NCBI RefSeq assembly: GCF_018502625.1
Contig: NZ_CP075566.1
Span: forward strand, 1,183,001 to 1,247,000
Direction: 5' to 3'
Length of the DNA stretch: 64,000 nucleotides
Source: Pseudomonas hormoni
GTDB lineage: Bacteria > Pseudomonadota > Gammaproteobacteria > Pseudomonadales > Pseudomonadaceae
Each line of letters starts with the position of its first letter. Positions within the stretch are counted from its first letter, which is position 1. Made by a program: the position numbers and the translations under genes. Of this stretch, positions 2,678 to 31,400 are shown piece by piece. Under the pieces are notes generated by a model. That model saw only the letters and a program-made list of their open reading frames with translations, had not been told where the DNA came from and ran no database searches.

Positions 2678-2814
2678 ATGTGTGCGTCAGAAGGTTCGAC
2701 CTGTCATCTTCCGCGACGTAGAATGCGCGCCTTTCCCGGGCAATCGAGCAGATCGATTGGCCATCATGGGCGGGTAACCGTCCGTTGCCACCCGCATTCA
2801 TCGGAGCACTTCCC

Positions 2815-9304: not shown

Positions 9305-9413
9305 GTCGTGGAAGTGCCGCAAAGGTTGGCACACCCACGCTGGCCCGGGTAGCGGGCCAGTCACATTTTTGATGAGGCGATAAAAAACCTTGGCGCCGTA
9401 TTTTTATAACCGA

Positions 9414-9509
9414 CTAGCCGATCACCTTCGTCAGGTTCGGCAAAATCAACAACAGCGTAGTGGCGAAAAGAATGAGCCCGGCTTGACGTACTTTCGAATG
9501 TTTGAACAT
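9414..9509 (-). CDS. Very small membrane protein, 31 aa
   Basis: A 31-residue product with a basic start (MFKHSKVRQAG) and one hydrophobic helix LILFATTLLLILPNL, ending TKVIG. The ATG at 9509 is preceded on the minus strand by AAGGCGG. The size and form are those of small single-pass membrane proteins, and the frame is clean, but it is short enough to be chance. Function unknown. Confidence 0.5.
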   Translation of the reverse strand: MFKHSKVRQAGLILFATTLLLILPNLTKVIG

Positions 9510-9897
9510 GGCTTGACCGCCTTTTTTGTTATTTCCTGATGCCTGCCTGCATATCTCCATGACGGCAGCGCGTTGCACTTCCTGTAGTGCGAGCGCCTCG
9601 GCAAAACCCGACGACAACTTCGCATATGTTCACCTTAGGGCCCGCGTCACTCGTGGTTTAGATCCATTTCGTATGGAGTGCGTACCTATTGCTTTTAAAA
9701 AGGTATGAGGCCTATTGCCAGCTTCTTTGCCGCCCTTTTGCTAGACATCTCGGTGTCCCGAAACGGTTAATCCGGTAGCACACTACCGTCCGTCTGAGCG
9801 TGTCCGTCAACGTCCGTGAGCATTGCGGTCATTGAATCGGCGGTGGCTCGGCATAAGGTGAGGGCTCTGTATTTTCACCGTCAGGTTCGAGGACGTC
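9510..9897. other. Intergenic region before the thiolase gene
   Basis: 388 bases without a supported gene. It must hold the promoters of the 31-residue protein gene and of the thiolase operon. A short perfect hairpin CGGTAG-CACA-CTACCG is at 9773-9788, and CGTCCGT occurs three times at 9788-9818. No known regulatory RNA is recognised. Confidence 0.5.
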
Positions 9898-11103: not shown

Positions 11104-11128
11104 GCCCCCGATTTTTAGGAAAACTGCC

Positions 11129-13273
11129 ATGACCGAAGCCATTCGTTACGAAAAAGGGCAGGACCAGATCGTCGTCCTGACCATCGACATGCCGGGCCAG
11201 AGCGCCAACACCATGAACGCGGTCTACCGTGAGGCCATGGCTGCCTGCGTTGCCCGTTTGGTGGCTGAAAAAGAAAGCATTGCCGGCGTCATCATCACCT
11301 CGGCCAAGAAAACCTTCTTCGCCGGCGGCGACCTGAATGAACTGATCAAGGTCGGCAAGCCTGAAGCCAAAGTGTTCTATGACATGGTGCTGACGCTGAA
11401 GGGCCAATTACGCACCCTTGAAACACTGGGTAAACCGGTGGTCGCCGCGATCAACGGCGCGGCGCTGGGCGGCGGCTGGGAAATCTGCCTGGCATGCCAT
11501 CACCGCGTGGCGCTGGACAATTCATCGGTGCAGCTCGGCTTGCCGGAAGTCACCCTCGGCCTGTTGCCGGGCGGCGGCGGGGTGGTGCGCATGGTGCGCA
11601 TGCTCGGTCTGGAAAAAGCCTTGCCGTATCTGCTTGAAGGCAAGAAGGTCCGCCCGCAACAAGCGTTGCAGGCGGGTTTGATCGATGAGCTGGCAGCGAA
11701 TTGCGAAGAGCTGCTGGCCAAGGCGCGGGCCTGGATCATCGCCAATCCAGCGGCTGTACAGCGCTGGGACGTGAAGGGCTATCAGATACCGGGCGGTACG
11801 CCATCGAATCCAAAAGTCGCGCAGATGCTGGCGATTGCGCCGTCGATCCTGCGCACTAAAACCCAGGGCTGCCTGCCTGCGCCGGAGAAAATCCTTTGCG
11901 CCGCAGTTGAAGGCGCGCAGGTGGATTTCGATACCGCGCACCTGATCGAAACCCGTTACTTCACCGAGCTGACCACCGACCAGATCTCGAAAAACCTGAT
12001 CGGCACCTTCTGGTTTCAGCTCAACGAGATCAATGCGGGCGGCTCGCGGCCTCAAGGGTTTGCACCTTATGTGACGCGTCGCGTGGGTGTCTTGGGCGCC
12101 GGGATGATGGGCGCCGGGATTGCTTTTGTCAGCGCATCGGCGGGCATCGAAGTGGTGCTCAAGGACATCAACCTCGCGGCTGCGGAGAAAGGCAAGGCGC
12201 ATTCGGCGGCGTTGCTGGACAAGAAAGTTGCCCGCGGCCAGTTGAGCGCCGAGCAGCGCGATGCAGTGCTGGCGCGGATTAAAACCACTGAAAATGATGC
12301 CGATCTGGCCGGTTGCGACCTGATCATTGAAGCCGTGTTCGAAGACCGCGAGTTGAAAGCCAAAGTCTCTTCAGCCGCGCAACTCATCGTTGGCTCTGAC
12401 GCGGTGATCGCCTCCAACACCTCGACCTTGCCAATCAGCGGTCTCGCCACCGCCGTACCGGATCAGAGCAAGTTCATCGGCCTGCATTTCTTCAGCCCCG
12501 TGGAAAAAATGCCCTTGGTGGAAATCATCAAGGGCGCCCACACCAGCGACGAAACTCTGGCCCGCGGGTTCGATTTCGTCCTGCAAATCAAGAAAACGCC
12601 GATTGTGGTCAACGACAGCCGCGGCTTCTTCACTTCGCGGGTGTTCGGCACTTTCACCAACGAAGGCATTGCCATGCTCGGCGAAGGCGTGAGCGCAGCG
12701 ATGATCGAGACCGAAGCGCGCAAGGCCGGCATGCCGATCGGGCCTCTGGCGATCTCCGACGAAGTTTCCCTCAGCCTCATGAGCCATATCCGCCAGCAAA
12801 CCGCCAAAGACCTGCAAGCAGAAGGGAAAGCGCTGATTGAGCACCCGGCGTTTGCCGTGATTGACTTGCTGCTCAACGAATACAAGCGTCCGGGCAAAGC
12901 CGCTGGAGGTGGTTTCTACGAGTACCCGGTCGGAGGCCAGAAGCATTTGTGGCCGGAGCTGAAAACCCGCTTCGAGAAAGCCGACGGACAGATTTCGCCA
13001 AAGGATGTGCGTGATCGCCTGCTGTTCGTGCAAGCCATCGAGACGGTGCGCTGTGTGGAGGAGGGCGTGCTGACCTCGACGGCGGACGCCAACGTCGGGT
13101 CGATCTTCGGTATCGGTTTTGCGGCCTGGACCGGTGGCGCGCTGCAATTCATTAACCAGTATGGTGTGAAGGACTTCGTCGCCCGTGCGCAATACCTCGC
13201 CGAACAGTACGGCGAACGGTTCGCACCACCGGCGCTGCTGTTGCAAAAAGCCGCCAGAGGGGAGGCGTTCTAA
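11129..13273 (+). CDS. Fused enoyl-CoA hydratase / 3-hydroxyacyl-CoA dehydrogenase (FadJ-like)
   Basis: A 714-residue bifunctional beta-oxidation enzyme. The N-terminal crotonase domain has the oxyanion-hole segment FFAGGDLNELIKV and both catalytic glutamates (Glu118 in GGGWEICLAC, Glu140 in LGLPEVTLGLLPGGGG). From about residue 310 the dehydrogenase domain begins with RVGVLGAGMMGAGIAF (NAD-binding), followed by GLHFFSPVEKMPLVEIIKG with the catalytic histidine, and two C-terminal helical domains. AGGAAA lies seven bases before ATG 11129; the longer upstream frame overlaps the thiolase and is not used. It probably forms a complex with the thiolase encoded just upstream. Confidence 0.94.
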   Translation: MTEAIRYEKGQDQIVVLTIDMPGQSANTMNAVYREAMAACVARLVAEKESIAGVIITSAKKTFFAGGDLNELIKVGKPEAKVFYDMVLTLKGQLRTLETLGKPVVAAINGAALGGGWEICLACHHRVALDNSSVQLGLPEVTLGLLPGGGGVVRMVRMLGLEKALPYLLEGKKVRPQQALQAGLIDELAANCEELLAKARAWIIANPAAVQRWDVKGYQIPGGTPSNPKVAQMLAIAPSILRTKTQGCLPAPEKILCAAVEGAQVDFDTAHLIETRYFTELTTDQISKNLIGTFWFQLNEINAGGSRPQGFAPYVTRRVGVLGAGMMGAGIAFVSASAGIEVVLKDINLAAAEKGKAHSAALLDKKVARGQLSAEQRDAVLARIKTTENDADLAGCDLIIEAVFEDRELKAKVSSAAQLIVGSDAVIASNTSTLPISGLATAVPDQSKFIGLHFFSPVEKMPLVEIIKGAHTSDETLARGFDFVLQIKKTPIVVNDSRGFFTSRVFGTFTNEGIAMLGEGVSAAMIETEARKAGMPIGPLAISDEVSLSLMSHIRQQTAKDLQAEGKALIEHPAFAVIDLLLNEYKRPGKAAGGGFYEYPVGGQKHLWPELKTRFEKADGQISPKDVRDRLLFVQAIETVRCVEEGVLTSTADANVGSIFGIGFAAWTGGALQFINQYGVKDFVARAQYLAEQYGERFAPPALLLQKAARGEAF

Positions 13274-17234: not shown

Positions 17235-17272
17235 AGCGCGCCTCGACAGACAGAACATGTTTGAAGAGATAC

Positions 17273-17362
17273 GGTGAAGTGTCCGAGTGGCTTAAGGAGC
17301 ACGCCTGGAAAGTGTGTATACAAGAAATTGTATCGAGAGTTCGAATCTCTCCTTCACCGCCA
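17273..17362 (+). tRNA. tRNA-Ser, anticodon GGA
   Basis: 90 bases with CCA encoded. The acceptor stem GGTGAAG pairs with CTTCACC, followed by G and CCA. The D-arm contains GAGTGGCTTAAGGAG, the anticodon loop CTGGAAA carries GGA (reads TCC/TCT), the long variable arm is typical of class II serine tRNAs, and the T-arm is GAGAGTTCGAATCTCTC. The gene is single, followed by a terminator and then by an accessory operon. Confidence 0.95.
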
Positions 17363-17378
17363 AATTCGATGTAACCAG

Positions 17379-17410
17379 AACCCCTGATTTCGAAAGAAGT
17401 CAGGGGTTTT
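17379..17410 (+). terminator. Terminator of tRNA-Ser
   Basis: AACCCCTGATTT and AAGTCAGGGGTTTT form a strong stem with a CGAAAG loop and a T-run. Confidence 0.9.
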
Positions 17411-17467
17411 GTGGTTTCGGCACCTGAAAAAGAATTGCCGTTCGGCAGGTGGCAATCTGCCCACGCG

Positions 17468-17476
17468 TGGTATATT
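17468..17476 (+). promoter_or_regulatory. Possible extended -10 promoter for the phosphoramidate operon
   Basis: TGGTATATT is a TGn-extended -10 hexamer (TATATT). No good -35 box is seen at 16-18 bases. It lies about 208 bases before the first gene of the operon, leaving a long leader (17477-17683) with a small GGAG-TTGAA-GCTCC hairpin. Tentative. Confidence 0.35.
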
Positions 17477-17683
17477 CGATCCATTCGTGGTCCGGAGTTG
17501 AAGCTCCTTAGTGGATTTTTAAAGGAAGTTTAATACGACTTTAGTCTGATATGCCTCACAACAAGGACGTACACGCGCTGAAGGGAGAAGCGCCAGAGCA
17601 AGATCAACTACTTCTCCACCTCTTTGCGTATATTTTCCTGGAACCGGTTTGCTTGGGAAAGCTTTGAAGGTGCATTTTTTTTT

Positions 17684-18874
17684 ATGAAAAGCGTTTACTT
17701 GGTCAGCAATGTATTAAATGGCGGGAAAACGTATGTTGAATACCTACAGCCGATATTGAACTCTCTTCGTGATCAATATGATTGCACAGTGCTTCAGACG
17801 GATAAGGTCGGTATCAGCAAGTACGAAGCAGAGCAGATTCTGAATTATCCAGTTGAAGAAGTGGAGCTGGAATTCATCTTGACGCTAAAGTCAAAAGTAA
17901 TCTTTTCGAACGATGCTTCGATCGGTCGCCTGCTTGATGTGTCAAACTTTGGTGTTTATGTAGCGCATGGCAATGTCGGTATGCCCACCCAGGACAGATA
18001 TTATTACTCTGCGTGGATGTCTTTTTGGGATGCGATTGTTTCTTCGTCCCGATCGAGTTTTGATCTTGTTAAAACTGGCCTTGGGCTTTATAGACGTGAG
18101 AGGCGTGCATCGCTCATCGCGCCGATAGGCGAGTTGTGGCGATCGGATCTTCGAGCAACCAGTGCTGTGTCTGTGCTGCCAGTCAAAGTTCCCGCAATGT
18201 TTGAGCATCCCCAAGAGCAAGTGCGAACTTTGGGGGAGTATGTAATAGGTCTGCTGCCGACCCAGCTTGGCATATGCCCCAATGGCGCCAATCTGTATGA
18301 GAACCTGGAAGTCGTTATTAATGCAGTAAAGCTGCAGATTCCCAACGCCAGTTTTATTTTGCGGCCTTACATGACGGACAGGGAACACCCGCTTGTAATG
18401 GATATTTGCAGGCAGCTTTCTCAGTGTGCATGGATTTCCATTGATGAGACCGAAAAAAGCAGTAAAGAGTTTTATAGTCAATGTGACACCGTCATCACTG
18501 ACGCCTCGACCGGTGGCGTTTCTTTTATGCTGAGTACGTGCAAGCTCCCGATTTATTACGTTCCGGCTACCAGCGAGAGCAATCCCATTATTCAGTCCTG
18601 GCTGGAACAAATGGACGGCTTGTTACCCATCGCCAAAAACAGCGATGAACTTAAAGACATGGCGCTTGGATTTACTTTGCTCACATCCGAGCAGAAGTAT
18701 TTTATATACAAGAAGTTCTACGAGTCAGAATACAGCGGACTGCATCATCCAGATGAAGTGTTTCGAGATCTGGTTGAGAAAGAGCACGAGTCTGTATTTT
18801 GTCAATTCGTGATTGACTCCTACGGAGCCATTAACCAACGACAGACCAGGCCCTCAGAAAGCCTGGCACAGTGA
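17684..18874 (+). CDS. CDP-glycerol-type (GT-B) transferase, candidate phosphoramidate transferase
   Basis: A 396-residue soluble protein whose second half looks like the TagB/TagF CDP-glycerol glycerophosphotransferase family. YSQCDTVITDASTGGVSFML followed by KLPIYYVP matches that family's nucleotide-binding segment, and GVYVAHGNVGMPT plus DAIVSSSRSSFDLV match its N-terminal half. These enzymes move a phospho-group from a CDP-linked donor to a polymer. Because the downstream genes appear to make a CDP-linked phosphoramidate, I infer that this protein transfers that group to an acceptor. Base composition is clearly richer in A and T than its neighbours. ATG 17684 follows GAAGGTG at a rather long distance. 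It is the first gene of the operon, with 16 bases to the next. Confidence 0.7.
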   Translation: MKSVYLVSNVLNGGKTYVEYLQPILNSLRDQYDCTVLQTDKVGISKYEAEQILNYPVEEVELEFILTLKSKVIFSNDASIGRLLDVSNFGVYVAHGNVGMPTQDRYYYSAWMSFWDAIVSSSRSSFDLVKTGLGLYRRERRASLIAPIGELWRSDLRATSAVSVLPVKVPAMFEHPQEQVRTLGEYVIGLLPTQLGICPNGANLYENLEVVINAVKLQIPNASFILRPYMTDREHPLVMDICRQLSQCAWISIDETEKSSKEFYSQCDTVITDASTGGVSFMLSTCKLPIYYVPATSESNPIIQSWLEQMDGLLPIAKNSDELKDMALGFTLLTSEQKYFIYKKFYESEYSGLHHPDEVFRDLVEKEHESVFCQFVIDSYGAINQRQTRPSESLAQ

Positions 18875-18890
18875 TCGTGGATCTCGGGCA

Positions 18891-19475
18891 ATGAATACGT
18901 TTAAACCCCAAATTGAGTCAGGTCATATGAGCGCTGATCCAACCGGGCAAGTCGTCTGGATTACCGGCCTGTCGGGCGCGGGTAAGTCAACGTTGGCTGT
19001 CGAGTTCGTTGCCGGGCTTCGAAGCCGTGGCCACTCGGTTGTCATGTTGGACGGGGACGAACTGCGCGACGTCTTTGGCGCAACCGCTGCCAATTCGCAA
19101 AACCATGGGCGTAAGGGGCGTTTGGCGCTGGCCATGCAATATGCCCATCTGTGCAGAGTCATTGCGGCGCAAGGACACACAGTCGTGATCGCCACGATTT
19201 CGCTGTTCCGCGAGGTTCATGCCTGGAACCGTGCCCACTTGCCTGGTTATTTCGAGGTTTATTTGAAGGTGCCGGTGGAGGAGTTGCGCCGCCGGGACCC
19301 CAAGGGAATATATCGCCGGTTCGATGCGGGCGAGTTGAACAACGTCGCGGGGCTCGATCTAGCGATTGATGAACCGGACGCGGCTGACTGGGTAGTGGAG
19401 TTTGACCCTGACCGCTCCATACAAACATTGACTGAAAACGTGCTGCACCATTTTTTTAGAAGGAAGTTGGTATGA
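18891..19475 (+). CDS. APS-kinase-like protein, probable cytidine diphosphoramidate kinase
   Basis: A 194-residue P-loop kinase of the adenylylsulfate kinase fold. The Walker A motif GLSGAGKS is at 26-33, followed by MLDGDELRDVFG and the RDPKGIYRRFDAGELNN lid-region segment. The APS-recognition segment of true APS kinases (DLGFS...DR.EN) is replaced by ATAANSQNHGRKGR, and no cysD/cysN lies nearby, so sulfate activation is unlikely. In C. jejuni, Cj1415, also annotated as APS kinase, phosphorylates cytidine diphosphoramidate on the ribose 3'-hydroxyl in the methyl phosphoramidate pathway. The same role is inferred from the neighbours. An alternative start is the ATG at 18927. The stop overlaps the next start by four bases. 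Confidence 0.82.
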   Translation: MNTFKPQIESGHMSADPTGQVVWITGLSGAGKSTLAVEFVAGLRSRGHSVVMLDGDELRDVFGATAANSQNHGRKGRLALAMQYAHLCRVIAAQGHTVVIATISLFREVHAWNRAHLPGYFEVYLKVPVEELRRRDPKGIYRRFDAGELNNVAGLDLAIDEPDAADWVVEFDPDRSIQTLTENVLHHFFRRKLV

Positions 19476-20221
19476 AAACCGAATGGGACTACTCCACTCT
19501 GGCCGACGCTTACTTGAAGCGTCCTGACTACGCCGATGCCGCGATCGACGCAATGCTTTCCATTGCCGGTGCCGAGAAGGGCGACAAGTTTTGCGATGTC
19601 GGCGCAGGCGTCGCACACCTGACCCTCATGCTGGCTGCTCGTGGTCTGGATGTTGTGGCCGTGGAGCCGAATGATGCAATGCGGGCCAATGGCATCAAGC
19701 GTACCGCCGACCTCTCGAATGTTCGTTGGCATGAAGGCACCGGCGAAGTCACGGGTCAAGCATCCCAAGCGTTCGACATGGTCACCTTCGGTAGCTCCTT
19801 CAATGTCTGCGATCGCCAGCAGGCACTCAAGGAAACCGCGCGCATTCTCAAGCCTCGCGGCTGGTTTGCCTGCATGTGGAATCACCGCAATCTTGAAGAT
19901 CCGATCCAGGCCCGAATCGAAGCCATCATTAAAGAGCGGGTACAGGGTTACGGTTACGGCACCCGTCGTGAAGACCAAACGGCAGTGATCGATGCCAGTG
20001 CGCTGTTCGGACCTGTTGTTCATCTTGATGCGCGCGTCATTCACGAGCAAAGCATTGAGGAATGCCTGGAAGCCTGGCGTTCCCACGCGACACTGGAGCG
20101 TCAAGCCGGTGCGAAATTCCATGAGGTGATCAGCGCAATCGACGACTATCTGAGAAGCCTTGATACGGCCTCGATCCAGATTCCGTACTCGACCAATATC
20201 TGGGTTGCTCAGTTGAGATAA
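19472..20221 (+). CDS. Class I SAM-dependent methyltransferase of the phosphoramidate operon
   Basis: A 249-residue cytosolic methyltransferase. Motif I is KFCDVGAGVAHLTLMLAARG, with the acidic VVAVEPNDAMRANG strand after it, then FDMVTFGSSFNV and LKPRGWFACMWNHRN. It overlaps the kinase gene by four bases and the glutamine-kinase-like gene by one, so it belongs to the same transcript. In the C. jejuni phosphoramidate cluster one or two methyltransferases (Cj1419/Cj1420) sit at this place and are thought to add the O-methyl group. I infer the same role here. The sequence alone would allow other small-molecule or lipid substrates. Confidence 0.82.
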   Translation: MKTEWDYSTLADAYLKRPDYADAAIDAMLSIAGAEKGDKFCDVGAGVAHLTLMLAARGLDVVAVEPNDAMRANGIKRTADLSNVRWHEGTGEVTGQASQAFDMVTFGSSFNVCDRQQALKETARILKPRGWFACMWNHRNLEDPIQARIEAIIKERVQGYGYGTRREDQTAVIDASALFGPVVHLDARVIHEQSIEECLEAWRSHATLERQAGAKFHEVISAIDDYLRSLDTASIQIPYSTNIWVAQLR

Positions 20222-22542
20222 TGCCGATGGCGCTGCATTTCTCTACCAAGGCCGGCACATTGTCCGGCCTTCAGGAGCGGCTCCGGTCGGCTCGCATTGC
20301 TCCCTTGCTGTCGTTCACCGTAAGGGACTGGCAGATGGGGCGGCACGCCTGTTTTCGTGATGTCCGGGGACGATTGGGGGACGGTCCGTGGATCGTGCGC
20401 TCCAGTTGTCTGCGCGAAGATGGCGCGCAAGCGTCCGGCGCGGGGGCTTTTCTCTCGATCGCTGATGTCACTGAAGCAGAATTGGAGTCGGCCATTGAAC
20501 AGGTGATCGCCAGTTATGGCGATACACACCTGGCAGACGAGGTACTGATTCAGCCAATGCTGGCGAATGTGGTTCGGTCCGGTGTCGCCTTTTCCCACGA
20601 CCCGAATACCTGTGCGCCGTATCGGGTGGTGAACTGGTCGGAAGGCAGTGACACGGCATCGGTCACCAGCGGCATGGGCGGTCGGTTGTGGCAGCAAGCG
20701 GCACGTAGCGAAGTGCCGCCCCCGCCCAGCCTCGTTCCCATGATTGCCTTGCTCGAAGAGTTGCTGGAATTGTTCGATGGCGTCCCGGTCGATTGCGAGT
20801 TCGCTGTCACGCGCGAAGCCGCGGGCGAGGTGCTCTGGCTCTTGCAGGCCCGACCACTGATCCTGCCGACACCTGCGGAATCCGAAACAGACCAGGCTGC
20901 TCGTCTGGACAGTATTCAGCGCAAGGTGGCGCGGGGCATGCAGCCGCACCCATTCCTGATCGGCCAACGTACTGTCTATGGCGTGATGCCGGACTGGAAT
21001 CCGGCCGAGATTATCGGTATCCGTCCCAAACCGCTGGCGCTTTCGCTGTACCGGGATCTGGTGACTGATTCAATCTGGGCCTACCAGCGCCACAATTACG
21101 GCTATCGCAACTTGCGTAGCTTCCCGCTGATGCCGCATTTCTTCGGGCTGCCGTACATCGATGTACGCTTGTCGTTCAACTCGTTCATCCCGGCAGATCT
21201 TGATGAGGGGTTGGCAGGGCGACTGGTCGATCACTACATCGATCGGTTACTGGCCGAACCGACGCTGCACGATAAAGTGGAGTTCGAGATCGTGTTCTCG
21301 TGCTACACACTGGATTTGTCGCAGCGGCTGGAGCGTTTGGCCAGTGCCGGGTTCCTGGAGCACGAGCTGGAGGCGATCAGCACCAGTTTGCGCAAGCTGA
21401 CCAACCGCATCGTTCATCCCAAGGACGGCTTATGGCGCGCCGACGCCGCCAAGCTCGACACGCTCAATGCGCGACGCGAAGAGTTGCTGGCCTCCAACGC
21501 CGATCCTCTGGAGCGGATTTACTGGCTGCTGGAGGATGCCAAACGCTACGGCACCCTGCCATTCGCCGGTCTGGCACGTGCCGGATTTGTCGCGGTGCAG
21601 ATGCTTAAATCCCTGGTGACGGTGGGCGTTTTTTCGCAAGCTGACTACGATTGCTTCATGGCGGGCGTCTCTACCGTGAGCGGCCAGTTGGCGCGTGACC
21701 GAGCGACCCTGGACAAGGCGACCTTCCTCGCGCGATACGGCCACCTGCGCCCGGGCACCTACGACATCCTTTCACCCCGTTACGATGAAGCGCCGGAACT
21801 CTACTTCGACTGGACGCAACGTCCATCGGCCCCGGAACCGGTGCAACCTTTTTCGCTGACCCTTCCTCAGATGCGCGAAATCGTGAAGCAATTGGAAGAG
21901 CACGGCCTGCAACCGGATCCCGTCGGGTTGCTGGATTTCATGCAAGCCGGGATCGAGCTGCGTGAGCTGGCCAAGTTCCACTTCACCCGCAATCTCTCGG
22001 ATGCCCTGGCATTGATTGCCGAAGTGGGCGCCCAGCACGGCATCAGCCGCGAGGACATGGCCTATTGCGACATCGGTGCCTTCCAGGAACTGCACGTTGC
22101 GGCAGCCGACCCGAAAGATGTGCTGTTGCACAGCATTGAGCAGGGCAAGGCCCGCTACGAAAAGACCCTCAAGTTGTCGCTGCCGCCGGTGATTACCCGA
22201 CCTGAGGATGTCTGGTCTTTCGAGTGGCCGGAAACAGCCCCCAACTTCATCACCCAGAAACAGGTGACAGCCCCCGTGGTGGGCAGCGATGACCGGGAAA
22301 AGCTCGCCGGGGCGATTGTCTGCATTCCCAACGCGGACCCGGGATTTGACTGGTTGTTTGCTTACCCGATTGCCGGGTTGATAACGGCATGGGGCGGTGC
22401 CAATTCACACATGGCGATTCGCGCTGGTGAACTCGGCTTGCCCGCCGTCATCGGTGCCGGTGAAGTGCTCTATCGCCGCTGGTCGGCGGCCCAACGCCTG
22501 CACCTGGACTGTCCCGGCCGCTGGGTGGAGATGCTGGCATGA
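20221..22542 (+). CDS. PEP-synthase-like protein, probable L-glutamine kinase
   Basis: A 773-residue phosphotransfer enzyme. The N-terminal ATP-grasp domain (about 40-220) has WIVRSSCLREDGAQASGAG, as in PEP synthases. A middle part of about 430 residues does not resemble the PEP-binding barrel of PpsA. The C-terminal domain carries the phosphohistidine in GGANSHMAIRAGELGLPAVIG (His730) and ends there. This domain order is that of C. jejuni Cj1418, which phosphorylates the amide nitrogen of L-glutamine with ATP to give AMP and phosphate. The adjoining amidotransferase and cytidylyltransferase genes support the call. The first ATG (20221) overlaps the upstream TAA; a second ATG two codons later is possible. 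A true PpsA is encoded at 55710. Confidence 0.83.
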   Translation: MPMALHFSTKAGTLSGLQERLRSARIAPLLSFTVRDWQMGRHACFRDVRGRLGDGPWIVRSSCLREDGAQASGAGAFLSIADVTEAELESAIEQVIASYGDTHLADEVLIQPMLANVVRSGVAFSHDPNTCAPYRVVNWSEGSDTASVTSGMGGRLWQQAARSEVPPPPSLVPMIALLEELLELFDGVPVDCEFAVTREAAGEVLWLLQARPLILPTPAESETDQAARLDSIQRKVARGMQPHPFLIGQRTVYGVMPDWNPAEIIGIRPKPLALSLYRDLVTDSIWAYQRHNYGYRNLRSFPLMPHFFGLPYIDVRLSFNSFIPADLDEGLAGRLVDHYIDRLLAEPTLHDKVEFEIVFSCYTLDLSQRLERLASAGFLEHELEAISTSLRKLTNRIVHPKDGLWRADAAKLDTLNARREELLASNADPLERIYWLLEDAKRYGTLPFAGLARAGFVAVQMLKSLVTVGVFSQADYDCFMAGVSTVSGQLARDRATLDKATFLARYGHLRPGTYDILSPRYDEAPELYFDWTQRPSAPEPVQPFSLTLPQMREIVKQLEEHGLQPDPVGLLDFMQAGIELRELAKFHFTRNLSDALALIAEVGAQHGISREDMAYCDIGAFQELHVAAADPKDVLLHSIEQGKARYEKTLKLSLPPVITRPEDVWSFEWPETAPNFITQKQVTAPVVGSDDREKLAGAIVCIPNADPGFDWLFAYPIAGLITAWGGANSHMAIRAGELGLPAVIGAGEVLYRRWSAAQRLHLDCPGRWVEMLA

Positions 22543-23150
22543 AGGTCGTTGCCATCAGCCAGCGTGTGGATGCGTTCCCAGAACGCGGCGAAACACGTGA
22601 TGCGCTCGACCAGCGTCTGATCGCTTTTGTACTGGCTGCCGGTTTTTTGCCGGTGCCGGTGCCCAACGGGTTATGTCTGCAAACAGTCGACGGGGAGCGG
22701 GATGCCTTGCATGACTGGCTGAACACGGCATTGCCCCACGCCATTGTGCTTTCGGGCGGAAATGACATCGGCGAATGTCCGGCACGCGACCTGACCGAAA
22801 GCCGATTACTCGACCATGCAAGCTCCTATCGCCTGCCTGTACTTGGAATTTGCCGGGGAATGCAGATGATCGCGCACTGGTCCGGGGGCGAGCTAAAACC
22901 GGTAACGGGTCATGTTCGAACCCGGCATCAATTGTCGGGAAAGATTGTTGCCGAGGTGAACAGTTACCACGGCTTGGCGCTTGCCGGTTGTCCGCCAGAG
23001 TTCGAGGTCCTGGCGCGCAGTGAAGACGGTGAAATCGAAGCCATCCGACACTTCAGCCTGCCGTGGGAAGGCTGGATGTGGCACCCGGAGCGAGAGGACG
23101 TTTTTGCAGCACACGACGTTCATCGATTGAAGCAATTGTTCTGCGAATAA
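22539..23150 (+). CDS. Class I amidotransferase, probable gamma-glutamyl-CDP-amidate hydrolase
   Basis: A 203-residue protein with the glutamine-amidotransferase/peptidase C26 fold. The nucleophile is Cys105 in VLGICRGMQMIAHWSGG, and the His-Glu pair is His182/Glu184 in MWHPERE; YHGLAL is a further family segment. It overlaps the glutamine-kinase-like gene by four bases. C. jejuni Cj1417 has this fold and cuts the gamma-glutamyl amide of CDP-L-glutamine, giving cytidine diphosphoramidate and glutamate. The same place in the operon, between kinase and cytidylyltransferase genes, points to this role. A plain gamma-glutamyl hydrolase is the alternative. Confidence 0.83.
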   Translation: MKVVAISQRVDAFPERGETRDALDQRLIAFVLAAGFLPVPVPNGLCLQTVDGERDALHDWLNTALPHAIVLSGGNDIGECPARDLTESRLLDHASSYRLPVLGICRGMQMIAHWSGGELKPVTGHVRTRHQLSGKIVAEVNSYHGLALAGCPPEFEVLARSEDGEIEAIRHFSLPWEGWMWHPEREDVFAAHDVHRLKQLFCE

Positions 23151-23236
23151 GGACGTTGTTTCTGACGGAACAAGTGGTACTGGGAGCCCAACTCGTCGCG
23201 ACGAGTCCATTCGAAATTTCATGAGGTAGAACAGTT

Positions 23237-23950
23237 GTGAAAGCCATTATTCTGGCTGCCGGGCGTGGCAGCCGCATGAAGAGCCTCACGGATGAACGTC
23301 CGAAATGCATGGTCGAATTGCGCGGAAAGACACTGCTGGAGTGGCAACTTGCCGCGCTGCGCGATGCAGGCGTTGACGAGATCGCCATTGTTACCGGCTA
23401 CAAACGCGAGTTGTTGGCAGGCCGGGGGATGATCGAATTCCATAATTCACGTTGGGCGCAAACCAACATGGTGTCGTCGTTGGCCTGTGCGCAAGCCTGG
23501 TTGCAGGACGAACCGTGCATTGTCAGTTATTCCGACATCTTCTACAGCCCCGTAGCGGTTCAGTCGTTGATGACATGCAAGGCTTCCCTGGCCGTCACCT
23601 ATGACCCGAACTGGCTGGCACTTTGGACCGAGCGTTTTGGCGATCCATTACTGGATGCCGAAACGTTCCGACTGACCTCCGATAACACCTTGGCTGAAAT
23701 CGGCAACAAGCCGCAATCAGTCGATGATGTTCAAGGCCAATACATGGGGCTTTTGCGCTTCACGCCTGAGGCTTGGGCAGAAGTCGTGCGGCTGCGCTCG
23801 GCGTTAACCCCGGAACAATGTGACAAAGTGCATATGACCAACACCCTTCAGCAAGTCATCGATGCGGGGCGGGTCCCGATACAAGCCGTAGCCTACAATG
23901 GCGAGTGGGGCGAGGTGGACTCTGCTGAAGATCTCTTTTTGTATCAATAA
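23237..23950 (+). CDS. Nucleotidyltransferase, probable CTP:phosphoglutamine cytidylyltransferase
   Basis: A 237-residue nucleotidyltransferase of the LicC / sugar-1-phosphate type. The N-terminus has LAAGRGSRM and KCMVEL (Lys23), then DEIAIVTGYKRE and the metal-binding aspartate in IVSYSDIFYS. It starts with GTG, with GAGGT about ten bases before; 86 bases separate it from the previous gene. LicC enzymes use CTP on phosphocholine, but no choline genes are present. C. jejuni Cj1416 is of this type and makes CDP-L-glutamine from phosphoglutamine. Given the four preceding genes, that is the preferred reading. It is the last gene of the operon. Confidence 0.82.
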   Translation: MKAIILAAGRGSRMKSLTDERPKCMVELRGKTLLEWQLAALRDAGVDEIAIVTGYKRELLAGRGMIEFHNSRWAQTNMVSSLACAQAWLQDEPCIVSYSDIFYSPVAVQSLMTCKASLAVTYDPNWLALWTERFGDPLLDAETFRLTSDNTLAEIGNKPQSVDDVQGQYMGLLRFTPEAWAEVVRLRSALTPEQCDKVHMTNTLQQVIDAGRVPIQAVAYNGEWGEVDSAEDLFLYQ

Positions 23951-24018
23951 CGGGAAGCCTGGGATCTGCGATTTCGCCCGTTGAAAGTTGCCAGGCCCCC
24001 TCGAACGGAATCGGAATC

Positions 24019-25356
24019 ATGGCTCATCCTGTCGCTGCATCCCGTTGGCTAGTCATGCCGATCGCAGCCGTGTCGATGTTCGCTGCTTGTTCACTGGCCG
24101 TTGCATCTACCCCTGCAACCTTCCCGGACGCAAACGCCAGCGACCCCGCAACACTCGGCTGGATGGTCGGCTCGCCACCGCCCGCCGATCGCACTGTGCG
24201 CTTCGAAGATGTCAGCTACTTCCAGTTCCCGGCGATGCGCTGGAGCGTCTCGAACTTCCGCCAGCTCATGCCAACGATCAACGTTTCACGGGGTTTGGCT
24301 GCTCCGGTGCCGTTAGCGTCCGCGCTGCGCAAAGACATCGACACCCTCACGTTCACGCCGCTCGGCGCGAAGACGTCGATGACCTGGGATCAATCCCTGG
24401 CCGCGACTTACACCGACGGGATTGTGGTGATGCACCGTGGCAAGGTGGTGTACGAGCGGTACTTCGGCGTGCTGAAACCTGAAGGCCAGCACGCGGCGAT
24501 GTCGGTGACCAAGTCCGTGGTCGGCACGCTGGGCGCGATGTTGGTCGCCGAAGGGCAAATCGATGCGAACAGATCTGTCGCCGATTACGTCCCCGAACTG
24601 GCTGCATCTGCCTTTGGCAGTGCCACGGTGCGTCAGGTCCTCGATATGACCACCGCGCTCAGGTACAGCGAAGACTACGCCGACCCGAACGCTGAAGTCT
24701 GGGCTCATGCAAAAGCTGGCAGCCCGCTCCCCAAGCCGAAGGACTACACCGGCCCGCGAAGTTACTACGAGTTTTTGCAGACGGTTCAACTGCAAGGCGA
24801 ACACGGCAGCGCGTTCGCCTACAAGACGGTCAACACCGACGTTCTGGGTTGGGTGATCGCTCGAGTGACCGGTCGAAATGTCGCGCAGTTATTGTCGGAG
24901 CGTATCTGGAGTCGGCTGGGTGTCGAGCAGGATGCCTATTTTACGGTGGACTCCATCGGCACTCCGTTTGCCGGCGGTGGCTTGAATACCGGTTTGCGGG
25001 ACCTGGCGCGGTTTGGCGAGATGCTACGCAATGACGGTCGATTCAATGGCCAACAGATCGTGCCCAAAGCGGTGGTCGATGACATCCGTCGTGGCGGCGA
25101 CAAGCAAGCATTTGCCAAGGCCGGTTACGATTTGTTGAAAGGCTGGAGCTACCGGTCGATGTGGTGGGTGACGAACAAGGCGGGTGAGGCGTTCATGGCG
25201 CGAGGCGTTCATGGGCAGCGCATCTATGTCAACCCTGCGGCCCAGATGGTCATTGTTCGATACGCTTCCCATCCCGTTGCCAGCAACGCGGCCAACGATC
25301 CTGTTACGTTGCCGGCGTTTGATGCGCTGGCTCAACATTTATCCCGGTTGCCTTGA
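24019..25356 (+). CDS. Exported serine hydrolase, beta-lactamase/6-aminohexanoate-dimer hydrolase family
   Basis: A 445-residue protein with an N-terminal export signal (WLVMPIAAVSMFAACSLAVAS). Cys24 lies in a poor lipobox (FAAC), so it is more likely a soluble periplasmic protein than a lipoprotein. The catalytic SxxK is SVTK (Ser162, Lys165), as in class C beta-lactamases, penicillin-binding esterases and NylB-type hydrolases. The C-terminal GVHGQRIYVNPAAQMVIVRY matches the last strand of the fold. It lies 68 bases after the phosphoramidate operon on the same strand; co-transcription is possible, but there is no functional reason for a link. The natural substrate is unknown. Confidence 0.87.
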   Translation: MAHPVAASRWLVMPIAAVSMFAACSLAVASTPATFPDANASDPATLGWMVGSPPPADRTVRFEDVSYFQFPAMRWSVSNFRQLMPTINVSRGLAAPVPLASALRKDIDTLTFTPLGAKTSMTWDQSLAATYTDGIVVMHRGKVVYERYFGVLKPEGQHAAMSVTKSVVGTLGAMLVAEGQIDANRSVADYVPELAASAFGSATVRQVLDMTTALRYSEDYADPNAEVWAHAKAGSPLPKPKDYTGPRSYYEFLQTVQLQGEHGSAFAYKTVNTDVLGWVIARVTGRNVAQLLSERIWSRLGVEQDAYFTVDSIGTPFAGGGLNTGLRDLARFGEMLRNDGRFNGQQIVPKAVVDDIRRGGDKQAFAKAGYDLLKGWSYRSMWWVTNKAGEAFMARGVHGQRIYVNPAAQMVIVRYASHPVASNAANDPVTLPAFDALAQHLSRLP

Positions 25357-25384
25357 GTGCCAAGGCCCTGAAAAAGGAAAACCC

Positions 25385-25705
25385 ATGATCACCACCACAA
25401 CCCACGCCATCGAAGGCCGCCAAATCACCGCCTACCTGGACATCGTCAGCGCCGAGTCAGTGCAGGGCGTTAACGTTATTCGGGACATGTTCGCCGGGAT
25501 GCGGGACTTTTTCGGTGGGCGCTCTCAGACATTGGAGCGTGCGTTGAAGGAAGCGCGGATTCAGGCGACCGATGAGATCAAGGAGCGGGCGCGAGCGCTT
25601 CAGGCTGACGCTGTGGTGGGGCTTGATTATGAGATCAGCATGCCGGCCGGGAAGGGCGGGATGGTAGTGGTTTTCGTCACCGGGACGGCCGTTAAACTGA
25701 GGTGA
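25385..25705 (+). CDS. YbjQ-family protein
   Basis: A 106-residue cytosolic protein of the YbjQ/UPF0145 family, which is small, pentameric and of unknown role (often labelled heavy-metal-binding). Typical segments are the start ITTTTHAIEGRQITAYLDIV, then VIRDMFAGMRDFFGGRSQTLE and ADAVVGLDYE. A GGAAA stretch lies before the ATG. It follows the serine hydrolase by 28 bases and may share its transcript. Confidence 0.9.
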   Translation: MITTTTHAIEGRQITAYLDIVSAESVQGVNVIRDMFAGMRDFFGGRSQTLERALKEARIQATDEIKERARALQADAVVGLDYEISMPAGKGGMVVVFVTGTAVKLR

Positions 25706-25883
25706 GTCCGGTACGAATTGATGTGTTGGTTTTGTAGGAAGTGGTGTAGCCCATTCGTCGGGCATCGGAAATATGAATTACAAGTCCGGTAGTGACCGAC
25801 TAGTCTCAAAAGCTTGGTGGTCGATATGTTTCAGGCAAATAGGGCTTGCCGGTGTCGATCCCGCATTTGAGAGGGGTGAAAAG

Positions 25884-26072
25884 ATGGCTGATCCGTATAT
25901 CGAAGACGACGAAGCTGAATTTCCGATCAACAATTGCGTGCAGTGTGGCCAGACAGATTATGTGTCGGGCTTTGGTGATGATGAGGTCAAGCTCGGCAAG
26001 ATGAAAACGATGGTGCGCCAGGGACCGAAGGCGAAATTTTTACCCAAGGTAGCGGCACCGGTCAGGAAGTAG
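25884..26072 (+). CDS. Small CxxC protein, 62 aa
   Basis: A 62-residue hydrophilic product, acidic at the start (MADPYIEDDEAEFP) with a CVQCG motif at about 19-23 and a basic second half. One CxxC pair could bind metal as a dimer or form a disulfide. ATG 25884 follows a strong GAGGGG site and ends just before a terminator, which supports it as a real gene. Function unknown. Confidence 0.7.
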   Translation: MADPYIEDDEAEFPINNCVQCGQTDYVSGFGDDEVKLGKMKTMVRQGPKAKFLPKVAAPVRK

Positions 26073-26382: not shown

Positions 26383-26754
26383 ATGCGTTTAACACTGCCC
26401 GCCCTGGTTCTGGGTTTGTTGGTTGCTCAAGGTGCAATGGCTGCTGGCGACGGCACGGCCGCGCTGGGTGGCGGTCTGGGTGGCGCGCTGGGTAACGTCG
26501 TCGGCCAAAGCATGGGCGGCAGCACCGGCGCAGCGATTGGTGCCGGTGTAGCGGGCGCAGCTGGCAGTGCCGTGGCAGCACGCAAAGGCAGCCGCACCAA
26601 AGCCGCAATCGGCGGCGGTGTGGGTGCCGCGGGCGGCTCGGTAATCGGCAATAGCCTGGGTGGCAAGACCGGCTCCACCATCGGCGCTGGTTTGGGCGGT
26701 GCATTGGGCGGTGGCGTTGGCAGCAACCTGGCCAAGGGTCACAAGCGTCATTGA
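26383..26754 (+). CDS. Exported glycine-zipper protein, copy 1
   Basis: A 123-residue protein with a signal peptide (MRLTLPALVLGLLVAQGAMA) followed by an almost continuous glycine-zipper region. GGxxG/AxxxG steps repeat in units such as LGGALGNVVGQSMGGSTGAA and IGNSLGGKTGSTIGAGLGGA. The tail is short and basic (AKGHKRH). Glycine zippers of this sort form packed membrane helices in outer-membrane-associated proteins. It is the first of two tandem paralogues, the second at 26944. A terminator follows directly. Function unknown. Confidence 0.88.
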   Translation: MRLTLPALVLGLLVAQGAMAAGDGTAALGGGLGGALGNVVGQSMGGSTGAAIGAGVAGAAGSAVAARKGSRTKAAIGGGVGAAGGSVIGNSLGGKTGSTIGAGLGGALGGGVGSNLAKGHKRH

Positions 26755-26772
26755 TTCTGAGAGATCAGTTCA

Positions 26773-26800
26773 AAAGCCCGGCTTGATGCCGGGCTTTTTG
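26773..26800 (+). terminator. Terminator of glycine-zipper copy 1
   Basis: AAAAGCCCGGC-TTGAT-GCCGGGCTTTTTG, a strong stem with T-run. Confidence 0.93.
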
Positions 26801-26943
26801 TATCTGGCTGTTTCTCCTTCGCAGCTAGCGCATCTTTAGCGGTCAAAACGTCATCGCTGAGCGGATTCAGTGGGGGCAGGTGCTAGACTCCGCCGATCCG
26901 TAGCGCGTTCTTTTCCCCCGTTGCGGAATTAGAGGTTCATATC

Positions 26944-27372
26944 ATGCGTTTGACATTGTCCACGTTGGTTCTGGGACTTTTGGTCGCTCAAGGTGCGATG
27001 GCTGCCGGTGACGGCACCGCGGCTGTTGGCGGTGGTATTGGCGGTGCGTTGGGTAACGTGGTCGGCCAGCAAATGGGCGGCAGCACAGGTGCAGCGATTG
27101 GCGCCGGTGTGGGTGGCGCGGCGGGCAGTGCGGTTGGCGCGCCTAAAGGCAGCCGCACCGCAGCGGCCGTCGGTGGTGGTTTGGGCTCGGCAGGTGGCTC
27201 GGTGATTGGTAACAGCCTCGGTGGCTCGACCGGTTCAACCATCGGCGCAGGCCTGGGCGGTGCAGCCGGTGGCGCGGTGGGCAACAACCTGGGCACCGAC
27301 AGCGGCAGTTCCCATTCCGGAAACGGGCACAAAAACAAACACAAGAATAAACACAGGAATAAACATCGCTGA
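26944..27372 (+). CDS. Exported glycine-zipper protein, copy 2
   Basis: A 142-residue paralogue of the gene at 26383. The signal peptide (MRLTLSTLVLGLLVAQGAMA) and zipper region are nearly the same, residue by residue. It differs in having a longer C-terminal tail: a serine/histidine segment and then a basic repeat of the form KNKHKNKHRNKHR, encoded by an A-rich tract. The upstream 40 bases also resemble those before copy 1, so the duplication took in the leader. It has its own terminator. The lysine/histidine tail could bind metal, nucleic acid or lipopolysaccharide, but this is a guess. Confidence 0.88.
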   Translation: MRLTLSTLVLGLLVAQGAMAAGDGTAAVGGGIGGALGNVVGQQMGGSTGAAIGAGVGGAAGSAVGAPKGSRTAAAVGGGLGSAGGSVIGNSLGGSTGSTIGAGLGGAAGGAVGNNLGTDSGSSHSGNGHKNKHKNKHRNKHR

Positions 27373-28086: not shown

Positions 28087-28470
28087 TGATTCGATCCATT
28101 TTCTGAAGAAATTTCGTTGGGCTTCCGGATCGTTCGTCAAGTTGTCTTCGTCATAGTCAAAAATGTAAACGATGTCGTCGAGTGATGCTTTTTTACCCAG
28201 CGTTAATTCGTACGCTTTTAGGCCGCGAGACATCTGTGAAGACATGCTGGAGGGGTGAACGTTGACCTTTGATCCTTTACAAAGAAATTGAATGTGGGGA
28301 TTGTCTTCTCGAATCCTGCCAAGGCACCTGTAAAAGTCAGTATCTGCATATGTTTTGTGGACACCGTTTCCCAGCACAAAAGTTATGGATACGGCTTTGC
28401 TGTCGCAGATCAGTTGAGCTGTTTCCTTTGTTCCATCAATTCTGATTGTCAATTCAACTTCAGATGTCAT
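28075..28470 (-). CDS. Probable immunity protein for the Rhs toxin
   Basis: A 131-residue soluble, acidic protein directly after the Rhs gene; its ATG overlaps the Rhs stop codon by four bases. In polymorphic toxin systems this position is held by the cognate immunity gene. The sequence has beta-strand-like segments (ELTIRIDGTKETAQLICDSK, SITFVLGNG) and a C-terminal helix. I do not recognise the family. It is AT-richer than the chromosome, like the toxin tip beside it, as expected if the two are exchanged as a unit. Immunity function is inferred from position only. Confidence 0.75.
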   Translation of the reverse strand: MTSEVELTIRIDGTKETAQLICDSKAVSITFVLGNGVHKTYADTDFYRCLGRIREDNPHIQFLCKGSKVNVHPSSMSSQMSRGLKAYELTLGKKASLDDIVYIFDYDEDNLTNDPEAQRNFFRKWIESEKQ

Positions 28471-31400
28471 TTCCTGATTTTCCTGTTTGGGTTGGGTATG
28501 GAATAGCCGAACTCTCTACCGTCATCAATGATCAACGTTGCTCCGAGGACATCCTCGTTTTTAATCCGGTTTGGTATGGCTATTTCCTTTTCCCTATCGA
28601 ATTGATACATCGCACCAAGCTCTTTCTCCAAGTCGTATCCGGGGATTTTTTGGAGTGTGTAGAGATAACCTATTTTCGTATTGAAGCCGGTGGCAAAAGT
28701 TTTTCCCATATCTCTCGATGTTGATGTGCTAATAAAATTGCTCGGTGGGTGGTCACTGTCGATAGAGTGGAGCAACAGATCATTGCTTTTTCCTTTACTT
28801 TTAAAGCCATTTTCGAACACATCATCAGGCTCTCGGTCATCTCCGCGGTATAAGTAATCGTCTTCTCCCTTCGGCTTAGGCAATGTGGGTTCAGCACCTT
28901 TTACGGTTGCCTTGTTGGTTGGATCCTCACCCGCCGCCCCGCATTTCCCCGCCCCCGGACACTCACTCAACCCCAACGGATCAACCCACCCCGTCGGACT
29001 CCGCGTGTACTGGTACTGATTCAACCCCCCAGCCAACTTGCTCGGATCCGGCGTCAAATACCGTCCAAGCTCCGGCTGGTAGTACCGATGCCGGTTGTAG
29101 TGCAGCCCGGTTTCCGAATCGAAATACTGACCCTGAAACCGCAACGGTTGGTCGAGAATCTGGTGGGTGTCTCGGTTCAGGCGGGTGAGGCGGCCGTAGG
29201 CGGTGTATCGCGCGGCCCAGACGATTTCGCCGCTGTAATCCGTCAGTTCTTGCGGTGTACCGAGGTGGTCGAGTTGGTAGTAGAACGGGCATGCCTTGCG
29301 AGGACCTTTGCCGTCGAGCATGGCCAATGGGCGAAATGTGCCCGGTTCATAGACGTAACTGCGGTAATGCTCGCGGCCGCTTTCGGCGACGAGGTTGTCG
29401 CCCTGCCAGAAAAACTCGGTGGTTTTGCCGTCGATGGTTTTGGCGATGCGGCGGCCGAAGGCGTCGTAGCGGTAGCTCGCGTAACGCCCATCCGGCGTCG
29501 TGACACCGATCAGCCGATGCTGGCAGTCGTAACGATATTCGGTGACAAGTTTTTGCGCTGTGCCCCGGCGTTCGCGAATGAGGTTACCGAAGGCGTTGTA
29601 ATCGTAATGCCGGTCGCCTTGCATCAGCAGGCGATTACCCAGCACCTTCGCTACGCCAGGGCGGTCCTGCATCAGCAGATTTCCGGCCGGATCGTGGGCG
29701 AAGCTTTCCGGTTGGTGATCGCGGGAGTGGCGGACGCGTATCAGGCGGTCGAGCGTGTCGTAGTGGTAGCTGCGCTGGCCGTGGCGAGTGTCGGCGATGC
29801 TGTCGAGATTGCCATTGGCGCTGTAGGCATAATCGCGGCGATACAGCGATTGCTGCTGTTGGCTTACGGCGTGGGCCTTCAGACGCCCTTGGTCGTCGAA
29901 CTGATATTCGCTGAGCAACAGGCCCTGACGTCGGGTTTGCTCGCGATCGGCGACGAAGGTGTGCGACGTGAGGCGGGCGCCATTGAGGTCAATGGCCGTC
30001 AGTGCGCCGCCCTTGGCATGGTGGTAATCGAGCCTGCTGTTGTCCGGCAGACGCAGATGATTGAGTTGTCCACAGGCATCGTAGCCATAACGCAACGTGC
30101 CCCACCCTTGGTGTTCGGTGACTAGCCGGTCCTGTTGGTCGTACTCGAACTCCAGCGGGTGATCGTTGCCGTCATCGACGCTGACCAGCCGCCCAAGGCT
30201 GTCATGGCGGTACTCGACGTTGACGCCGTCCGGCAGCGTCTTGACCAGCAACCGTCCAGTCGAATCCCGTTGATAAGCGGTAATCAGTTTCGAGTCGTCA
30301 TCACCGAACTCGGTTTTCTCCAGCAGATGACCGTTCAGGTCGTAGGCATACGCGGTGCGGCGGCCGTCGAACCCGGTTTCCTGTCGGATCAATCCATTGG
30401 GTGTGTAGTCCAGCTGATATTTCTCGCCGGATTCGTTTTCAATCCCGGTCAGCAGTAGCTGTGCGTTGTCGTAGCGATAAAGCAGTTGCGTACCGTCCGG
30501 ATTGATCCTGCGGCTGATCAGGTGCAGATCATCGGCATATTCAAAACGGGTGATGCGGCCCAGCTCATTACGTTCGGCAACGATCTTGCCGTAGGCGTTG
30601 TAGCTGAAGGCGCGACTGGCGCCTGTGGGAAACGTCGTCTGGATCAATCGTCCTGCGGCGTCCCATTCGTACCGGGTGACGGCACCGTGTTCGTCCTGAC
30701 GAGTCGTCTGCCGGCCAAGCACGTTGTAGGAAAAACGCCGCTGACTGCCATCCGGCAAGGTCTCTTCGATCAACTGCCCCAGGGCATTGCGAAGGAAGAG
30801 ATGCCGACTGTTGTCCGGATAACGGGCCGACAGCAGGCGACCTTTTTCGTCGTAGTGATAGTGGGTGACATGCCCGTCAGGATTAGTCGCTTCGGTGACG
30901 TCACCTTGGGCATTGCGCTGGTACTTCCACACGGCTTTGCCGCGGTACTGCGCATGCAGGAAACCATTGCGGTATTCGTAGGAGGTCGGCTCGCCTTCAG
31001 GTGGAATCAGGGCAATCAGTCGCCCGATTTCGTCATGGCGATATTGGGTAATCGCCCCCAGCGGATTCCTTTCGGCGATCAACCGGCCCTGGTCGTCATA
31101 GGCGTTGAAGTGTTCCGCCCCGTCCGGTTCAACCCGTTGCACGAGCCGCGCCTGATGATCGTGCCGGTAAAACGCTTCGCTGCCGTCGACGTTTTTTACC
31201 CGCACACCACCATTGTCATCCCAGGCATACCGCGTATCCATTTGCGAAAACGACGCCCAATGTCGGACGCATCGCACAGCCTTGCCGGACCTTTCCCATT
31301 CCCAGAAGAAACTCGCGCCACCGGCCAGTTGCCGCTGCAAAATAACCTGCTGGACGTCGTAGTCGTAGCGTTCGCTTTCACCGAGGGCATTGGTGGCTTC

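Follow-up and report, generated by a model that had tools for sequence, protein, structure and literature searches.

The cassette and its genes

The 64,000-nucleotide stretch of Pseudomonas hormoni DNA analysed here (contig NZ_CP075566.1, positions 1,183,001–1,247,000; hereafter the window) contains six plus-strand open reading frames at 17684–23950, downstream of a tRNA-Ser gene. Together they form a predicted operon for the synthesis and transfer of O-methyl phosphoramidate (MeOPN), with the following genes:

TF, 17684–18874, plus strand: predicted transferase of 396 amino acids (aa); ATG start common to 14 relatives
APSK, 18927–19475, plus strand: APS (adenylyl sulfate)-kinase-like protein, predicted cytidine diphosphate (CDP)-phosphoramidate 3'-kinase (Cj1415 type)
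MT, 19472–20221, plus strand: class I methyltransferase, Cj1419-like, predicted to act in phosphoramidate methylation
GLNK, 20221–22542, plus strand: predicted L-glutamine kinase (Cj1418 type)
GCDPH, 22539–23150, plus strand: class I amidotransferase-like protein, predicted gamma-glutamyl-CDP-amidate hydrolase (Cj1417 type)
CYT, 23237–23950, plus strand: predicted phosphoglutamine cytidylyltransferase (Cj1416 type); GTG start

The frames were taken from the open reading frame list, and the close spacing behind the tRNA gene described in the initial annotation was found, with overlaps of four bases at APSK/MT and GLNK/GCDPH, an overlap of one base at MT/GLNK and a gap of 86 bases between GCDPH and CYT. 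The best start of APSK at 18927 gives a protein of 182 aa, the same length as the APSK of locus L088 (loci are denoted by L and genomes by G numbers), with an alternative start at 18891. The GC content was 0.467 for TF and 0.556–0.611 for the other five genes. A consensus scan for promoter- and terminator-like sites returned a count not above that of shuffled sequence. A run of nine T (17675–17683) abuts the TF start; in L087 it counts seven T, and the remaining 13 relatives showed no such run, so that control by slippage (phase variation) may be possible only in this lineage.

Comparison with Campylobacter-type loci

A search of Campylobacterota genomes with the hydrolase profile NF045546 gave 58 of 397 genomes above the cut-off and 76 matching at an E value of 1e-22, and 20 loci were taken from these 76 matches, 17 of them above the cut-off. 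The Campylobacter-type loci L246, L247, L248 and L253, not strain NCTC 11168, were used as the reference, with Cj numbers assigned by position. All four have a DUF2972-type transferase followed in order by two methyltransferases, GLNK, GCDPH and CYT; downstream of CYT, an APSK was detected in L246–L248 and long frames identified by eye as KpsC and KpsS in all four. L246 was regarded as a MeOPN capsule locus because two curated models score above their cut-offs there, NF045546 with the hydrolase (321.7 bits) and NF058596, "O-methyl phosphoramidate transferase", with the transferase (772.1 bits, cut-off 600). The named relatives of this transferase come from Campylobacter jejuni, coli, lari and others.

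In a gene-by-gene comparison with three reference loci (L246, L248 and L244), five of the six window proteins matched Campylobacter-type counterparts (Cj1415–Cj1419) over 76–99% of their length, which points to a donor pathway of the Campylobacter type. The identity was 40.9–41.9% over 99% of GLNK, 37.3–38.0% over 98% of CYT, 35.7–40.5% over 76–84% of APSK and 31.6–35.0% over 91–92% of GCDPH. MT showed 41.8–42.3% identity to the GLNK-adjacent methyltransferase at the Cj1419 position and 30.6–31.5% to the one at the Cj1420 position. The catalytic motifs that had been read as intact were kept in these alignments, and the conserved residues presumably have the catalytic roles familiar from their families.

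Compared with C. jejuni Cj1415–Cj1422, the operon has homologues of the glutamine kinase, the cytidylyltransferase, the amidate hydrolase, the APS-kinase-like kinase and the methyltransferase and keeps the order TF-MT-GLNK-GCDPH-CYT. The kinase is moved forward, as annotated, and precedes the methyltransferase as in the Campylobacterota locus L244. The window operon differs in having one methyltransferase where C. jejuni has two, in its unrelated transferase, in the absence of adjoining capsule genes and in its position in an insert behind a tRNA gene.

The core trio GLNK, GCDPH and CYT

GLNK scored 1007.7 bits on NF004508 (cut-off 501), on which the GLNK of L246 scored 1130.1 bits. The best PEP (phosphoenolpyruvate) synthase model gave 45.6 bits, and assignment as a PEP synthase was rejected in favour of the glutamine kinase (Cj1418) reading. 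On these scores, the grouping with pyruvate- or other substrate-specific dikinases that the initial annotation had named as refuting was not observed. GLNK shares the ATP-binding and phosphohistidine domains of the PEP synthase/pyruvate phosphate dikinase family (Pfam PPDK_N and PEP-utilizers only) but has no match to the PEP-utilizers C-terminal domain. Its GGANSHM motif is kept relative to Campylobacter-type proteins, the predicted phosphohistidine being H730.

GCDPH belongs to GATase/Peptidase_C26 (Pfam). Its proposed identity with the Cj1417 hydrolase stood in part: NF045546 (gamma-glutamyl-CDP-amidate hydrolase) was the best NCBIfam match, but the score of 91.4 bits lies under the equivalog cut-off of 250. 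The cysteine and WH-x-ER motifs, aligned in all four sequences, are common to the Campylobacter-type proteins. CYT (NTP_transf_3 in Pfam) shares the motifs LAAGxGSR, PKCMVE and QYxGL with the Campylobacter-type enzyme, in agreement with the Cj1416 assignment.

The kinase and the methyltransferase

APSK matched APS_kinase (Pfam) and NF004041 (217.9 bits, cut-off 127), with 284.7 bits for the APSK of L246 on the same model, as expected for a kinase of the Cj1415 type; the P-loop and DGDELR are kept relative to Campylobacter-type kinases. Four APS-kinase matches were obtained in the window genome, two canonical ones at 170.6 and 167.0 bits, the operon APSK at 99.8 and a weak fourth at 23.3 bits. 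Judging by these scores, APSK is a divergent homologue of the APS kinases, the third in the genome after two canonical ones, and the possibility that it is the sole APS kinase of the genome was rejected because of the two strong ones elsewhere. Cassettes yielded 71 APSKs, of which 60 (eleven close Pseudomonas copies being omitted) were placed in a tree with the two own APS kinases as the outgroup. The window APSK was placed, at a node support of only 0.69, among 30 APSKs that include the Campylobacter-type kinases; neither of the two own APS kinases belongs to this group, nor do the remaining 30 cassette APSKs. Eight positions were common to at least 82% of the 34 MT-linked APSKs (window included) and found in neither own APS kinase.

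MT belongs to Methyltransf_11 (Pfam). Its TRREDQ stretch is common to the protein at the Cj1419 position and not to that at the Cj1420 position (L246, L248), and MT is predicted to be a Cj1419-like methyltransferase that methylates the phosphoramidate.

The unrelated transferase

The assignment of TF to Cj1421/1422 did not hold. BLAST of TF against L246, L248 and L244 gave no significant match (best E 1.3; 7.7 for the L246 transferase), and hhalign gave a probability of 0.1% with the Campylobacter transferase, for which a 3'-phosphoadenosine 5'-phosphosulfate (PAPS)-sulfotransferase fold was predicted. No Pfam or NCBIfam family was detected for TF, only DUF5132 at E 0.25, and a PDB sequence search, both with the single sequence and with a profile, found no credible relative. 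TF has 49 homologues, the family being found in Pseudomonas where named. In the AlphaFold model (mean predicted local distance difference test score, pLDDT, 88.9) the structure matches were of the GT-B fold. Of the proposal that TF is a CDP-glycerol-type transferase, the predicted fold of that broad type was retained and the CDP-glycerol family was not: unlike the TagF/TarL CDP-polyol phosphotransferases (PF04464), TF had no match to the PF04464 profile, and none by hhalign to the PF04464 protein of L052. The model has the GT-B fold with confidence, although TagF was not its best structural match. With the NF058596 (CJJ1420_fam)/DUF2972 transferases it shares the operon slot and the presumed role.

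Proposed pathway

The steps were assigned by homology to C. jejuni enzymes assayed by others. Starting from glutamine, ATP, CTP and S-adenosylmethionine, GLNK would phosphorylate the amide nitrogen of glutamine, CYT would join the product to CMP and GCDPH would split off glutamate to leave CDP-phosphoramidate. APSK would then phosphorylate its 3'-hydroxyl, MT would methylate the phosphoramidate oxygen and TF would transfer the group to the acceptor. According to PMC11800397, Cj1415–1418 make CDP-phosphoramidate 3'-phosphate, and the function of Cj1419/1420 is unassigned in C. jejuni; the Cj1416 family is treated in PMC12275187. We consider it probable, at roughly three in four, that the operon makes an activated MeOPN for transfer to a surface glycan, likely as Campylobacter does with its capsule.

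Methyltransferases follow one GLNK branch

A total of 157 sources was scanned, with loci shorter than 3,700 bases omitted; 154 hold GLNK (L047, L048 and L097 do not), and the 141 that span enough of it entered the GLNK tree. This tree was midpoint-rooted; a support value is available not for the node joining the window and L246 but for the 78-leaf group that encloses it (0.96). In the 73-leaf branch defined by this node, MT-type genes accompanied 56 leaves and APSK 54, whereas among the other 68 leaves they were found in two (one a 27-bit match) and 12, respectively, with the MT profiles built from members of this very branch, the flanks of the 8-kb loci short, and one place entered twice, as L119 and L211. 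When the leaves were thinned at 70% identity, MT was present in 29 of 44 leaves within the branch and in 2 of 61 outside it. The methyltransferases thus follow one GLNK branch. MT and APSK do not always occur together there: of the 44 leaves left after thinning, 21 had both, 10 only APSK, eight only MT and five neither.

This distribution bears on the alternative that the same donor pathway operates, with the tag left unmethylated or the acceptor methylated, and MT is not the phosphoramidate methyltransferase. Knockouts of Cj1419 and Cj1420 without apparent change are described in PMC11800397, and methyl-free phosphoramidate occurs in C. jejuni according to PMC9561416. The two C. jejuni methyltransferase paralogues could, however, mask each other, and the association of MT-type genes with one GLNK branch speaks for a role in the pathway; we give this alternative about the weight of an outside chance, and methylation of the phosphoramidate by MT is preferred.

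Distribution of the cassette

The hydrolase was found at an E value of 1e-20 or better in 33 of 398 Pseudomonas genomes and at an identity of at least 71% in 16 (window included). Loci from 20 of the 32 other matching genomes were compared, including all 15 other high-identity ones, and 14 of these 20 held all six genes in the same order, which amounts to 15 of the 398 sampled genomes with the window. Since 14 of 20 loci keep the order, and since GLNK and GCDPH are adjacent (by order of family matches) in 116 of the 154 loci with GLNK, the arrangement goes beyond chance. In L102–L106 (Pseudomonas) the trio was present and TF absent. In L097 (G416), the relatives of which have six genes, only GCDPH and CYT were recognised, and the genes upstream seem to have been lost or disrupted.

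In Pseudomonadota, none of 398 genomes passed the NF045546 cut-off, 14 scored at least 80 bits and 377 matched at E 0.001; 14 control genomes all matched below the cut-off, and most of the 377 matches are presumably other amidotransferases. A GLNK pattern biased to AT-rich genomes by design, and hence no census, was applied to one-genome-per-species contigs and gave 95 stretches; what follows comes from 80 of them. The listed matches included Pelagibacteraceae, Prochlorococcus, Lachnospiraceae, Clostridium, Paenibacillus, Patescibacteria and Planctomycetota, and among archaea Nitrosopumilus, a thaumarchaeote and Natronomonas gomsonensis. Some of these loci have GLNK alone, and many are metagenome-assembled genomes (MAGs) or single cells, so that binning errors are possible. 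An unbiased pattern matched 5 of 347 Campylobacterota genomes, compared with 58 of 397 for the hydrolase profile, and thus misses many GLNKs. Judging by these matches, the predicted core trio is not Campylobacter-specific and extends to Pseudomonadota, Campylobacterota, Prochlorococcus, Pelagibacteraceae, Lachnospiraceae and archaeal contigs. The order APSK-MT-GLNK-GCDPH-CYT was also detected in L043, L132 (a Prochlorococcus single cell) and L160 (a Coxiellaceae MAG), and with the other MT type on the A. lipoferum plasmid L050.

No viral contig matched the GLNK pattern, and a DNA search of E. coli genomes with 20221–23950 found none. Among 96 plasmid records with a match, 14 contain most of GLNK. 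The phage collection gave one match, L055 (MT837632.1, labelled Bacteriophage sp.), in which GLNK and GCDPH are fused into a protein of 1011 aa (652–3687); this 9.5-kb human-faecal record carries bacterial-looking housekeeping frames, and no cytidylyltransferase was found in it. In L054, a Cupriavidus taiwanensis plasmid with nif genes, GLNK lies at 8968–11310 with no recognised hydrolase or cytidylyltransferase within 20 kb. An extra NTP-transferase-like domain (37–95 bits, CYT profile) was observed at or just before the N-terminus of GLNK in L052, L056, L104, L105, L119 and L176, which by this domain match are a second cassette type.

The acceptor

As the initial annotation had stated, no capsule locus adjoins the operon: a family scan of ten flanking window proteins found no glycan genes. 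In three other Pseudomonas loci (L038, L102 and L103), GLNK lies directly downstream of flgK-flgL, which suggests flagellin glycan as one acceptor. Downstream of GLNK-GCDPH-CYT-APSK-MT, L038 encodes DegT, FdtA, a protein of PF04464 and a glycosyltransferase with several domains. In L102 and L103 the trio is accompanied by an APSK match on the opposite strand, with a DegT gene farther on and no MT match. In the window genome, about 17 kb separate flgL from fliC; within this stretch lie genes for two large proteins of glycosyltransferase family 2 (L300) and a frame resembling DegT (33%), which makes a flagellin glycan plausible there; nothing was found tying TF to this region. The lipooligosaccharide (LOS) of Xanthomonas campestris carries phosphoramide, a P–N group outside Campylobacter, according to PMC8042644, which makes lipopolysaccharide (LPS) another possible acceptor. 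Flagellin glycan and LPS are the leading candidates for the window operon.

The product could instead be a small molecule, either phosphoramidate in free form or a metabolite carrying it, with TF acting on a small acceptor. The lack of glycan genes around the operon would fit this, as would the stretches read around the L055 fusion and around the trio on an Agrobacterium vitis plasmid (L053), which show no glycan genes, the latter being accompanied by LysE and a CDP-alcohol phosphatidyltransferase. However, Pfam and NCBIfam detected no transporter among the six genes, related cassettes stand in capsule (L246), polysaccharide (L056) and flagellar (L038, L102, L103) settings, and GT-B is the fold of many glycan-linked transferases; we regard a small molecule as improbable and less so only than sulfation, and glycan decoration is preferred. 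That the operon serves sulfation, with APSK making PAPS, TF transferring sulfate and the genes for the PEP-synthase-like protein and the amidotransferase as unrelated passengers, was rejected as scarcely credible, for although the APSK families are named adenylyl-sulfate kinase and Sulfotransfer_1 proteins or cysDN lie near some related cassettes (L043, L050, L052), the TF model is GT-B and not a sulfotransferase, the genome has its own APS kinases and the GLNK-GCDPH-CYT linkage is kept across phyla.

A separate observation concerns the Helicobacter-like locus L209 (5560–16692), where the cassette adjoins a phosphonate pathway with a fusion of PEP mutase and a cytidylyltransferase domain, a thiamine pyrophosphate enzyme and an iron alcohol dehydrogenase; L207 and L208 look similar by eye. 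P–N and P–C chemistry may meet on one polymer there.

A possible horizontally moved module

A wider reading, which we put forward tentatively and hold to be somewhat short of even odds, is that phosphoramidate tailoring, far from being peculiar to Campylobacter, belongs to a module that is widespread in bacteria and archaea and has moved horizontally. APSK would make a PAPS mimic, 3'-phospho-CDP-phosphoramidate, moved by sulfotransferase-fold enzymes in Campylobacter and relatives; in Pseudomonas an unrelated GT-B transferase would have taken over this role, acting mainly on flagellin glycan, and MT, the one methyltransferase retained in these operons, would be the long-unassigned phosphoramidate O-methyltransferase. 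One review (PMC6429109) has the tag so far identified only in Campylobacter, and another (PMC9561416) calls the glutamine kinase C. jejuni-specific; six genes in 15 of 398 Pseudomonas genomes and the core trio across phyla change this picture. Among 30 Campylobacter strains, 13 have orthologues, and a phosphoramidate signal was obtained in 9 of the 13 (PMC3907429). MeOPN genes of Borgs are likewise found outside Campylobacter (PMC12660748), but Borgs are archaeal extrachromosomal elements. Among the titles and abstract openings listed by searches of open-licence literature, none gave an account of the operon in Pseudomonas. With its single methyltransferase, the Pseudomonas operon may offer a cleaner system than C. 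jejuni for the methylation enzyme and the role of the 3'-phosphate. In C. jejuni the tag is recognised by many phages (PMC9561416), which opens the same question for Pseudomonas phages.

The insert behind tRNA-Ser

The surroundings of the operon comprise the following features:

tRNA-Ser (GGA), 17273–17362, plus strand: the cassette sits downstream of it
terminator-like hairpin of tRNA-Ser, about 17380–17412: read directly from the sequence
insert, 17419–25368, no strand assigned: about 8 kb, missing from L286, L287 and L290 behind the corresponding tRNA-Ser gene (blastn)
serine beta-lactamase-family gene, 24019–25356, plus strand: PF00144, within the same insert

The blastn match to L286, L287 and L290 stops at 17418, past the tRNA gene and the hairpin, and resumes at 25369–25385. 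As the two matching flanks are separated there by only about 257, 568 and 699 bases, respectively, the insert is missing from these loci; further relatives hold different sequence at the same site. No integrase was detected among the seven main frames of the insert (frame list and Pfam), and no exact direct repeats of at least 12 bases were found between 17261–17520 and 23901–26000. The beta-lactamase-family gene adjoins the cassette in L087 and is absent from L091, where the cassette, likewise behind this tRNA-Ser gene, joins the flank directly; this gene is probably not part of the pathway. In G503, a 12-kb stretch without the cassette occupies the tRNA-Ser site (L296), and the cassette lies elsewhere, near tRNA-Leu (L088).

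Two further observations were made in the window. Close to the end of the insert, at 26383–27372, there are two tandem paralogous glycine-rich frames, the duplication also being found in relatives. On the minus strand, 28467–33335 encodes an RHS-repeat protein of 1622 aa with a Scabin-like C-terminal domain, which resembles a polymorphic toxin.

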